This document shows, in pieces, positions 23,639-57,022 of a DNA stretch of 64,000 nt; within the stretch, counting starts at the first letter, position 1; every line of letters starts with the position of its first letter. The notes beneath the pieces are model-generated. The model saw nothing but the letters and a program-made list of their open reading frames with translations, ran no database searches and was not told the origin of the DNA. Source of the stretch: Paludibacter sp. Lineage in GTDB: Bacteria; Bacteroidota; Bacteroidia; Bacteroidales; Paludibacteraceae. Location: NCBI GenBank assembly GCA_010365115.1, contig JAAFGX010000010.1, positions 1 to 64,000 of the forward strand, written 5' to 3'. Made by a program: the position numbers and the translations under genes.

Positions 23639-23642
23639 TTCG

Positions 23643-23719
23643 TTTTGTGTTCAGTGTTCAGTGTTCAGTGTTCAGTGTTTTGCGTTTTGCGTTTTGTGTT
23701 CAGTGTTTTGCGTTTTGTG
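23643..23719 (+). repeat. Eleven in-phase 7-bp words drawn from three variants
   Basis: TTTTGTG, 4x TTCAGTG, 2x TTTTGCG, TTTTGTG, TTCAGTG, TTTTGCG, TTTTGTG with no gap (77 bp). Confidence 0.97.
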
Positions 23720-36876: not shown

Positions 36877-36918
36877 AACTATCTACTATAAACTACCTAC
36901 TAAATACTACCTACTACT
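36877..36918 (-). repeat. Six 7-bp words overlapping the gldH 3' end
   Basis: Plus strand: AACTATC TACTATA AACTACC TACTAAA TACTACC TACTACT. Confidence 0.9.
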
Positions 36919-37392
36919 ACCCACTTTCTCCACCCGCATTCCAATATCATTAATCCCCATCAACACTGTATCGCGCATGCCGTGTCCAATTTTATATTGA
37001 TATTTTCCCTTTGTTGGAAACTTTACATTTTGTTGGTATAAAACAGGCATTTCGAGTACAGAACCAATTCCGGAACCAAGCCATTTTCCACGTTGATCAG
37101 CCAGATAAAGTTCAATCGAATCATTTAAAATAACGCTGTCGGGTGACATTTTTTGTAGAAATAACCACAAATTCTGATAAGGGTATTCTCCTCTGTTCCT
37201 AACATTTACGTATACATTATACGTAGAATTTTCATCCGATATTGGAATGTCGAAAACGCACAAACTGTCCTTATTCCAACCTTCTGGAGCAATGGTATTG
37301 TATTGAAAAAAAGCATCATTACTGGTACAGGCAATCAACAATAATGAACTCAGGATTACTCCGTTTTTAAATTTATTCTTTAGGTTCTTCAC
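36907..37392 (-). CDS. gldH: Gliding motility lipoprotein GldH-like
   Basis: Lipobox LLIACTSND; VYVNVRNRGEYPYQNLWLFLQKMSPD ... GIGSVLEMPVLYQQNVKFPTKGKYQYKIGHGMRDTVLMGINDIGMRVEK; next to the PSP1 gene. Confidence 0.8.
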   Translation of the reverse strand: MKNLKNKFKNGVILSSLLLIACTSNDAFFQYNTIAPEGWNKDSLCVFDIPISDENSTYNVYVNVRNRGEYPYQNLWLFLQKMSPDSVILNDSIELYLADQRGKWLGSGIGSVLEMPVLYQQNVKFPTKGKYQYKIGHGMRDTVLMGINDIGMRVEKVGSSR

Positions 37393-38614
37393 CAGTGTTA
37401 TTTTTCTTTATTGGTTTTTGAAATCTCAATTTATTTCCTTTATTTTCGTTCTGTTCGGGTCGGGCAAGTTGAGGACGATTGTTTGTATTATTAGAATTGT
37501 TAGAATTATTCGGACGTTTATTCTTGTTATTCGAACGTTTTTTTGTCGTATCGAAACGTGTCAAACTATCTTGTCCTACTCCGTTTTCGTAGTCAATTAC
37601 TACCGGTTTCACTTCATCTTCCGAATGATCATCAAGCAAATCAGGTTTTTGTCCTTTTCGGTTCAAAGCAATTACTTCTTTAGCTCGTTTTGCTGACACA
37701 GTTACTACATTTGCTCCAAAATTTTGAGAGGTAGAATAGGATATCAACCCTTTGAATACATCTGTTTTAAAATGATAATAGGTGTTGTCAAGCGTTTCCA
37801 ATTGAATTTCTTTCGACGGAAAATCCTTAATAGCATCCATGTATGAATCCAGTTCGTAATTCATGCAACATTTCAATTTTGCACACTGTCCCGCCAATTT
37901 CTGCGGATTGAGCGAAATATCCTGATAACGAGCTGCGCTGGTCGATACAGAGTTGAAATTTGTCATCCAACCCGAGCAACACAATTCACGCCCGCAAGGA
38001 CCAATGCCACCAATACGACCAGCTTCCTGACGAGCTCCAATTTGCTTCATCTCTATGCGAACACGGAATGTTTCGGCAAATACTTTTATCAACTGACGGA
38101 AGTCAACACGCTCATCAGCAATGTAGTAGAAAATGGCTTTATTTCCATCACCCTGAAATTCCACATCGCCAATCTTCATGTTCAATTTCAGATTCTCAGC
38201 AATCTGGCGTGATTTTATCATCGTTTCCTGCTCTTTGGCTTTGGCTTCCTGGTATTTTTCCAAATCGGTTTCTTTTGCTTTTCTGTAAACCCTGCGAACT
38301 TCAATTTTATCGGGATGCACATTGTTTTTACGCATTTGCAATAAAACCAGTTTCCCCACCAGCGTTACTTCACCAATATCATGTCCGGGAGAAGATTCCA
38401 CGGCCACCATATCGCCCTTTTCGAGGGGAATCTTGGTGTTGTTCAAAAAATATCCTTTTCGGGTATTTTTAAATTGTATTTCCACAAAGTCAGTTTCTTT
38501 CTGAGTTTCGGGCAGGTCGCACAACCAGTCGAAAGTAGCGAGCTTTTGGTTTGAATTGCGATTGCAACCTTTTTTATTCATGCGGCAACCGCCTGTATTG
38601 AGTGTATAATCCAT
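37373..38614 (-). CDS. PSP1-domain (RicT/YaaT-like) protein
   Basis: VDFRQLIKVFAETFRVRIEMKQIGARQEAGRIGGIGPCGRELCCSGWMTNF ... KLAGQCAKLKCCMNYELD; Asn-rich C-terminal tail. Confidence 0.9.
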   Translation of the reverse strand: MDYTLNTGGCRMNKKGCNRNSNQKLATFDWLCDLPETQKETDFVEIQFKNTRKGYFLNNTKIPLEKGDMVAVESSPGHDIGEVTLVGKLVLLQMRKNNVHPDKIEVRRVYRKAKETDLEKYQEAKAKEQETMIKSRQIAENLKLNMKIGDVEFQGDGNKAIFYYIADERVDFRQLIKVFAETFRVRIEMKQIGARQEAGRIGGIGPCGRELCCSGWMTNFNSVSTSAARYQDISLNPQKLAGQCAKLKCCMNYELDSYMDAIKDFPSKEIQLETLDNTYYHFKTDVFKGLISYSTSQNFGANVVTVSAKRAKEVIALNRKGQKPDLLDDHSEDEVKPVVIDYENGVGQDSLTRFDTTKKRSNNKNKRPNNSNNSNNTNNRPQLARPEQNENKGNKLRFQKPIKKNNTGEEPKE

Positions 38615-38620
38615 TCTTTT

Positions 38621-38774
38621 AGTTTGTAAAGTTTATAAAGTTGAAAGTTTGTAAAGTTGTAGGTCTGTAAAGTTGTAGGTCTGTAAAGTTGTAGGTTTGT
38701 AAAGTTGAATTGACTTTATAAACCTTATGAACTTTATGAACTTTATGAACTTTATGAACTTTATAAACTTTTTA
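38621..38774. repeat. Inverted-polarity word array (GT-words then AAC-words on + strand)
   Basis: GTTTGTAAA GTTTATAAA GTTGAAA GTTTGTAAA (GTTGTAG GTCTGTAAA)x2 GTTGTAG GTTTGTAAA, then 7 x 9 bp GACTTTATA AACCTTATG 3xAACTTTATG AACTTTATA AACTTTTTA. Confidence 0.93.
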
Positions 38775-39932
38775 CTATCTCTTAAGTAGCATAATAACTT
38801 TCAATGTTAAATCAAAGAAAATCATTTTTGCATTTACGTTTTGTTCTATTTGTCGTTCAGCCAGTGCAAATTCGGTCATCAAATCCTCCACATTTCGTTC
38901 ATTGATAAAAGGCGAAAAGCGTTGCGAAAAGTCGGCTTCGTATGTTGTCAAATAATTAAGATTTTTTTCCTGTAAATTTCGTATAAAATTTTCGCGGGTC
39001 ATGTGCTGGGCGTAACTTAAAAAGTTTTTCTGACGCTCCCGTCCAATGGCACTTGCCGCCATATCGTCGGCCCATTTACGTAACGTTTTGAGCGAGGCAT
39101 GATCTTTTTTGTTACCAACCTGCCATGCTAAACGCATCACCATTACAAATCGTTCAAAGTTAACTTTGTTTTCGTCGCCTTCGTTTAAAATGGCCAATGC
39201 TTCCAGATAACTTCCATTGGCAATACGGGCTATATTTAACGCATCGTGCTCGTTCACATCCAGCTCATCATCTTTCAATAGCATTTCAATAATTTCATTG
39301 TCAGCCAATTTTGGGACATGAATGTGTTGTGTACGAGATAGAATGGTGGTGATGATTTGATCGGGTTCGTTTGAAACCATCAGAAATAATGTTTTCTCTG
39401 GCGGCTCTTCCAGTATTTTTAATAATTTGTTGGCGCATGTGCTGTGCATCTTTTCGGGCAGCCAAATTATCATGATTTTATATTCTGATTCGTAAGTTTT
39501 GAGACTTAACTTACGTAGAATTTCTTCACTTTCGTTGGAATAGATCAAACCTTGTTTAGCATCGTCCGAAATGGTTGCATACCAATTATTCACACTAAAA
39601 TAAGGGTTTTTTAAAATCTGCGCTCTGAATTCAGTAATAAAATCGTCGCAAACCACCGAAGTTCTATTACCCGGTTTTATCACAGGAAAGACAAAATGCA
39701 AATCGGGGTGAGCCAGTTTTTTATACTTCACACACGAGGGACACGCACCACATGAATCTTTCTCCGAGCGATTTTCGCAACAAATATATTGAGCATACGC
39801 TATGGCAAGTCCGAGTTTTCCAACACCTGACGGTCCGCGCAAAAGCTGTGCATGCGGTATCCGCTGTTCGGCAACCGTGCGTTTCAGGCGTTTTTTTATA
39901 TCGTATTGACCAATGAGTTCTGAGAATAACAT
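38775..39932 (-). CDS. holB: DNA polymerase III delta' subunit
   Basis: HAQLLRGPSGVGKLGLAIAYAQYICCENRSEKDSCGACPSCVKYKKLAHPDLHFVFP, LLKILEEPPEKTLFLMVSNEPDQIITTILSRTQ. Confidence 0.93.
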   Translation of the reverse strand: MLFSELIGQYDIKKRLKRTVAEQRIPHAQLLRGPSGVGKLGLAIAYAQYICCENRSEKDSCGACPSCVKYKKLAHPDLHFVFPVIKPGNRTSVVCDDFITEFRAQILKNPYFSVNNWYATISDDAKQGLIYSNESEEILRKLSLKTYESEYKIMIIWLPEKMHSTCANKLLKILEEPPEKTLFLMVSNEPDQIITTILSRTQHIHVPKLADNEIIEMLLKDDELDVNEHDALNIARIANGSYLEALAILNEGDENKVNFERFVMVMRLAWQVGNKKDHASLKTLRKWADDMAASAIGRERQKNFLSYAQHMTRENFIRNLQEKNLNYLTTYEADFSQRFSPFINERNVEDLMTEFALAERQIEQNVNAKMIFFDLTLKVIMLLKR

Positions 39933-56859: not shown

Positions 56860-57008
56860 TTGGTAGTTTATAGTTGGTAGTAGGTAGTATGTAGTTGGTA
56901 ATGCTAATAGTTAATGCGCATAACGCATAACACAGAATGCATAACACTAAACACCAAACACTAAACACTAAACGCGAAACGCGAAAAACAGAAAACAGAA
57001 CACAGAAC
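56857..57008. repeat. Inverted-polarity 7-bp word array
   Basis: 6 words 56858-56899 (AGTTGGT AGTTTAT AGTTGGT AGTAGGT AGTATGT AGTTGGT); hinge GTTAATGC|GCATAAC; 13 words 56918-57008 (GCATAAC x2 ACAGAAT GCATAAC ACTAAAC ACCAAAC ACTAAAC x2 GCGAAAC GCGAAAA ACAGAAA ACAGAAC x2). Confidence 0.97.
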
Positions 57009-57022
57009 ATTTAATAATTATT

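Follow-up and report, generated by a model that had tools for sequence, protein, structure and literature searches.

The STRR repeats of heterocystous cyanobacteria are tandem heptamers that lie in spacers and change in copy number; like the array considered here they are tandem spacer repeats, but they are built of other words and are not known to have an opposed two-arm layout. Heptamer direct repeats have been reported from Beggiatoaceae, cyanobacteria and some Bacteroidetes (MacGregor 2015, PMC4679880), and for the TAACTGA repeats a protein-binding role was previously proposed (PMC4679880). Heptamers of the Guaymas Beggiatoaceae genome and of Flexibacter mostly run forward to the start codon; Flexibacter also has one reverse set, immediately 3' of a stop codon, and Paludibacter propionicigenes has two sets of heptamers (PMC4679880). 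The units of REP and BIME sequences are 20-40 bp long and bear GTAG or CGTC tags, and certain families occur beside transposase genes (PMC3733652).

The spacer between holB and ricT in a Paludibacter-group MAG (hereafter G000) carries a variant of the known heptamer-type intergenic repeats. As in the TAACTGA class, the spacer words are short, tandem, of mixed vocabularies and oriented with respect to the start codon (PMC4679880); unlike in that class, the main word is a 9-mer accompanied by 7-mers, the arms are opposed and the polarity extends, for several words, to both start and stop edges. Of the traits of the heptamer class, the confinement of tandem words to spacers is found here (33 of 538 spacers, 0 of 595 coding segments), as is orientation to the start codon (20 of 20 clear start edges for the 9-mer within the genus), but in place of a 7-bp unit, TAACTGA or close kin, there is the 9-bp AGTTTRTAA, with the 7-mers inside a 16-bp compound unit. 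Neither the opposed layout nor the polarity rule was met in the literature that we searched, where MacGregor 2015 (PMC4679880) comes closest. Likewise, the array resembles REP/BIME sequences in being intercistronic, palindromic and present in many copies per genome, but differs in having neither a tag nor a fixed unit, its arms being runs of 9-mers and 7-mers of variable length. A REP/RAYT element was rejected, there being no GTAG or CGTC tag in the spacer and no Y1 neighbour; four Y1_Tnp (RAYT-type) matches were found in G000, none of them adjoining an array.

Two opposed arrays between holB and ricT

The window, by which we mean the whole stretch of 64,000 nucleotides that was analysed, belongs to contig C30 of G000, and the spacer occupies positions 38615-38774 between holB and a ricT/yaaT-type PSP1-domain gene. 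It is filled by two opposed tandem arrays:

36907 to 37392, minus strand: gldH (PF14109, 1.2e-40), overlapping the end of ricT
37373 to 38614, minus strand: ricT/yaaT-type gene with a PSP1 domain (PF04468, 5.9e-30; NF041131 RicT, 3.6e-78)
38621 to 38705, no strand assigned: start-side arm of 9-mers and 7-mers (word split; TRF period 16, 4.9 copies, 90%, over 38631-38709)
38706 to 38712, no strand assigned: centre TGAATTG, where the polarity flips (read from the sequence)
38713 to 38771, no strand assigned: stop-side arm, a period-9 array (TRF 6.6 copies, 92% match; lag score 40.5)
38775 to 39932, minus strand: holB, DNA polymerase III delta' subunit (ORF; Pfam DNA_pol3_delta2, 4.7e-42), its stop adjoining the array

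The match of holB to TIGR00678 (1.1e-51) falls slightly under the cut-off of that model. Transcription runs on the minus strand from holB through ricT to gldH, and the three genes most likely form an operon in which the array is co-transcribed, since the holB-ricT gap is only 7-8 nt in six relatives and the pair remains adjacent. In the messenger sense the holB stop is followed by a few A-rich bases, six GTTYATAAA-type 9-mers, CAATTCA, the start-side arm, AAAAGA and the ricT ATG, which lies 6 nt beyond the array end; on the other side the spacer continues past the stop-side arm (ending at 38771) to 38774. The start-side arm reads, in this sense, as ACTTTACAA-type 9-mers alternating with the 7-mers ACCTACA or ACTTTCA, and on the + strand as AGTTTGTAA-type 9-mers mixed with 7-mers, the 16-bp (9+7) compound unit being repeated whole. 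The words of the stop-side arm are ACTTTATAA/ACTTTATGA on the + strand (AGTTTATAA/AGTTCATAA in the messenger sense), its 9-mers next to the holB stop being of the + strand form ACTTTATRA.

The first-pass annotation had placed an array at 38621-38774, and its coordinates and words are correct, including the + strand order of the left half (GTTTGTAAA, GTTTATAAA, GTTGAAA, GTTTGTAAA, then GTTGTAG alternating with GTCTGTAAA or GTTTGTAAA) and the centre, where AGGTTTGTAAAGT (38693-38705), TGAATTG and ACTTTATAAACCT (38713-38725) follow one another. It had counted seven 9-mers in the right half; the period of 9 is confirmed, but only six copies are good and the seventh is degenerate. The mixture of 7- and 9-bp words that it noticed is real and is explained by duplication of the 9+7 compound unit, the 16-bp unit that TRF finds 4.9 times.

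A chance origin of the array is excluded. The lag-9 score of 40.5 compares with maxima of 14.5 among 2000 dinucleotide shuffles and 16.0 among 2000 sequences from an order-4 Markov model trained on the spacers of G000; the inverted repeat scores 27.4, whereas none of 15 shuffles exceeds 13.0, and the fold z is -7.05 on the + strand and -4.53 on the minus strand. The spacer is AT-rich and its words are simple, as would be expected of generic low-complexity sequence with neither phase nor polarity, a reading raised by the first-pass annotation; but none of these 4000 composition-matched nulls exceeded 16.0, arrays appear in 0 of 538 shuffled spacers and the polarity described below holds at 31 of 31 edges, both signals thus lying far above their nulls, so that this reading was rejected and retains next to no probability.

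The inverted repeat lies directly 3' of a stop codon, as in intrinsic terminators, but without a GC-rich stem followed by a T tract and inside a likely operon; a terminator scan found none at the spacer, and this candidate was rejected. One sigma-70-like promoter match (38630-38601, minus strand) was obtained, fewer than in shuffles, and by eye TAnnTTTG is absent from the messenger strand of the spacer. A known Rfam RNA family was likewise rejected, the covariance search having returned a single match, outside the array and far under the gathering score.

Polarity of short-word arrays across genomes

The holB-ricT spacer is one case of a genome-wide class of opposed short-word arrays. Arrays of 6-10-bp words occur in 33 of 538 spacers (about one gap in sixteen) of a 1.09-Mb sample of G000 not selected by word content, but in no shuffled copy (n=538) and in no 170-bp coding segment (n=595); a portion of the genome picked for its 9-mer matches was excluded from this count and pooled in the all-vocabulary edge counts given below, and G000 itself is a draft genome whose contamination is estimated at about 7%. 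The genome-wide word search that the first-pass annotation had suggested thus finds the arrays to be a general feature of the genome and not particular to holB-ricT. Within the window, further arrays of the same or different words lie in gaps near 2.8, 23.6, 40.0 and 56.9 kb. The vocabularies that recur read, in the outward direction from genes, AGTTTRTAA (9), TAGTTGG/TAGTTTA (7), GTGTTTT/GCGTTTA (7), AAGAATC/AAGAGCC (7), TAATTGA (7) and GATGATGT (8); most of the other arrays are 7-mers, the main unit at holB-ricT being the 9-bp AGTTTRTAA. Arrays of the same kind with other words are found in G016, a relative represented by a single contig.

Some individual arrays deserve mention in their own right. 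The convergent gap at 23639-23719 of the window is filled with the 7-mers GTGTTCA/GTTTTGC in one polarity. Contig C50 of G000 terminates within a 250-bp AGTTAGTAA/AGTTTATAA array (L165, 1-330) with an opposed second arm present, and such arrays may break assemblies. In G016, opposed 7-mer arms stand, as read by eye, on either side of a Bacteroidetes-type promoter motif (TATCTTTG; L144, 11060-11200), and since the motif sits between them the arms would belong to different transcripts.

The orientation of the words follows a rule. Read outward from the nearest gene edge, the 9-mer is GTTTRTAAA at every clear edge within the genus (16 of 16 in G000, 15 of 15 in ten others), a total of 31 (20 start edges and 11 stop edges) in which the edges are partly non-independent and the gene calls ORF-based; two genus edges with an unclear nearest gene run opposite to the rule. 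A 259-kb sample of G040 contains two arrays only, both in agreement. The polarity of the 9-mer also holds at 9 of 10 clear edges in additional genomes of the class, almost all of which belong to family f73. When all vocabularies are taken together, the outward strand has G>C at stop edges in a ratio of 19:3, against 257:283 at non-array edges (P 3e-4), and at start edges in a ratio of 21:3, against 372:210 (P 0.018). Where a GT array has AC words of the 9-mer family no more than 200 bp away, these stand on its right (26 cases) and never on its left, an element with two full arms entering this count twice. Similarly, significant inverted repeats with arms of array words, whether 7-, 8- or 9-mers, are all G-first (n=11, by reading of the list), the C-first ones being mostly short hairpins of unrelated sequence. 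The reverse heptamer set found after a stop in Flexibacter agrees with this polarity.

Complementary arms are not needed for the polarity. The first-pass annotation regarded the lpxC-lpxA gap as having the same architecture as the holB-ricT spacer, and in the lpxC/fabZ-lpxA gap (56860-57022, genes confirmed) there is indeed a polarity flip, from TAGTTGG to ACACTAA; but the halves are of two unrelated vocabularies and are complementary no further than expected by chance (9.6, against a shuffle mean of 10.8 and maximum of 15.6), and therefore the polarity can exist without pairing arms.

Elsewhere, an IMG/VR phage-like contig pair (L336, L337) has a GT-word array just 5' of a start codon, contrary to the rule. 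The same 9-mer and opposed layout recur in L309-L326, mostly from family f73 of another order of the class, by convergence or by transfer.

Turnover of the spacer and folding of the messenger

The holB-ricT spacers were read in 36 genomes of the genus, one genome per species. The opposed 9-mer form, 73-160 nt long, is present in G000, G030 (whose spacer is identical to that of the SZUA-536 MAG), G040, G017, G015 and G047, whereas three genomes (G005, G007 and G009) have an array of the 8-mer GGTTAATTAGTTGATT 3' of the holB stop, others have different sequence and six have a gap of only 7-8 nt. Orthologous spacers accordingly differ in the number of word copies, in the words themselves or in the presence of an array, copy number varying between species. 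Because six genomes share the form and their relatives carry other words or no array, the array turns over fast. In the RicT tree these six do not form one clade, G047 being far from G000 and G017 and G015 belonging to an incompletely supported group, and for this reason the opposed form has probably been gained or lost more than once, with identical polarity each time. A distinct repeat, whose words resemble mini-hairpins, occurs in the spacers of G005, G035 and G045 (L033, L272, L274) as arrays of ACGAAGT/GCGAAGC-type words (TATCACGAAGTTAATATCGCGAAGC).

The 13-bp hairpin that the first-pass annotation drew at the centre pairs on the + strand, with one G-U, but the minus (messenger) strand has an A-C mismatch at that place. 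A hairpin is thus possible, yet chiefly on the non-messenger strand, the predicted fold energies of the spacer being -54.3 kcal/mol on the + strand and -33.4 on the minus strand; the difference arises because the variable positions give G-U on the former and A-C on the latter. The + strand is also predicted to fold better in G030 and G040, the reverse holds in G017 and G015, and G047 is about even. When codirectional array spacers are compared strand by strand, the sense strand folds less stably in 34 of 48 and more stably in 14 (controls: 80 weaker, 66 stronger, n=146), which argues against a messenger-selected hairpin because such selection predicts the opposite trend. A significant fold says little on its own, since control spacers also outfold their shuffles (64 of 150 with z < -2). 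Word identity is 0.91 and 0.90 within the arms and 0.76 between them, so that each arm has been homogenised separately, as fits slippage within arms and not maintenance of a stem. Such spacers fold well, yet here best on the non-messenger strand, and should not be read as conserved RNA structures.

Origin of the arrays

We tentatively favour, over a selected RNA hairpin, opposed arrays that grew by slippage, are probably not maintained as a switch, and are tolerated because the AC arm provides an A-rich, G-free leader in a phylum that lacks Shine-Dalgarno sites. As causes we infer slippage together with template switching, and selection on the leader as the reason for the polarity. The starting point would be a small inverted repeat formed within a spacer, as might happen through a template switch at a quasi-palindrome, and each arm would then lengthen and become homogenised through replication slippage, compound (9+7) units being duplicated whole. 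The arrays would persist only where harmless, and on the start-codon side the words would be held to an A/C/T-rich, G-poor orientation, since translation in Bacteroidia starts on A-rich leaders of weak structure and does without Shine-Dalgarno pairing; on the stop side, pairing at the birth of the inverted repeat would set the words in the opposite orientation. In F. johnsoniae initiation proceeds without SD pairing on such weakly paired, A-rich leaders, A being favoured at -3, -6, -12 and -13 (PMC6847099). The start-side arm fits a leader of this kind, because there is A at -3, -6 and -13 and the 13 nt 5' of the ricT ATG are unpaired in the predicted messenger fold. The array would act, if at all, as a permissive ricT leader, the messenger hairpin being a by-product and not a selected trait.

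Not all of the data sit comfortably with this origin. Six stop-edge 9-mer arrays with no evident same-word partner still follow the polarity rule, which counts against birth as a pair, as they are explained only if the partner has decayed; mixed-word spacers (lpxC-lpxA; L255) follow the rule as well, and an independent cause at stop edges is therefore possible. Moreover, slippage alone leaves unexplained why one and the same word recurs in spacers unrelated to each other and in a second family of the class.

The last point is what a dispersed family of palindromic elements would explain, transposition or gene conversion carrying the words and opposed layout from spacer to spacer and across lineages: the same 9-mer and GT-to-AC layout are indeed met in unrelated spacers of G000 and in another family, and the reversed pattern gives 0 control matches. 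Such a family is nevertheless quite unlikely, as no fixed ends, size or flanking duplication are seen, words and lengths vary freely, and the Y1 transposase genes of G000 stand apart from the arrays. Nor does carriage offer a vehicle, plasmid matches being weak (E-values 2-5, none meaningful) and the phage contigs few: the exact double word is found in 8, some within coding sequence and others in AT-rich spacers, several of these matches being coincidental, and both routes were rejected. A selected, REP-like intercistronic RNA hairpin, which would draw the stop of holB close to the start of ricT or block exonucleases and so set the ratio of holB to ricT-gldH protein, could account for the messenger fold z of -4.5, for the z of orthologues (-3.8, -3.1 and -3.8), for a stem that in G000 closes a few nt past the stop and 13 nt short of the ATG, and for an arm complementarity above that of other spacers (rank 0.021 here; Wilcoxon P 0.014, 58 spacers); arrays are also found in 60 of 783 codirectional spacers against 3 of 116 divergent and 3 of 110 convergent ones, with borderline P of 0.05 and 0.07. 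This hairpin is weakened by the strand comparison, both in the energies at this locus and in the 34 of 48 spacers, and we consider it unlikely, given that the arms diverge from one another, many relatives lack the stem or the spacer, and lone-arm and mixed-word arrays are common.

By analogy with the Beggiatoaceae repeats, likewise reiterated and oriented toward start codons (PMC4679880), the words might be recognised by a protein of S1, Csp or nucleoid type that binds RNA or DNA, their orientation and copy number tuning the downstream gene; but the many unrelated vocabularies in one genome would require many binders or one of loose taste, turnover at the orthologous spacer is fast, and we hold this to be very unlikely. 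It is also decidedly improbable that the arrays constitute an unrecognised class of the Bacteroidia, with an orientation fixed across vocabularies and families, that results from a dedicated process, template-directed or protein-guided, and not from chance slippage. If the polarity rule holds widely, the spacer repeats of Bacteroidia are not neutral filler, and either selection on leaders, the mechanism of their birth or a binder would respect gene edges; the rule would then make the function of bacterial heptamer-type repeats testable in one cultured strain.
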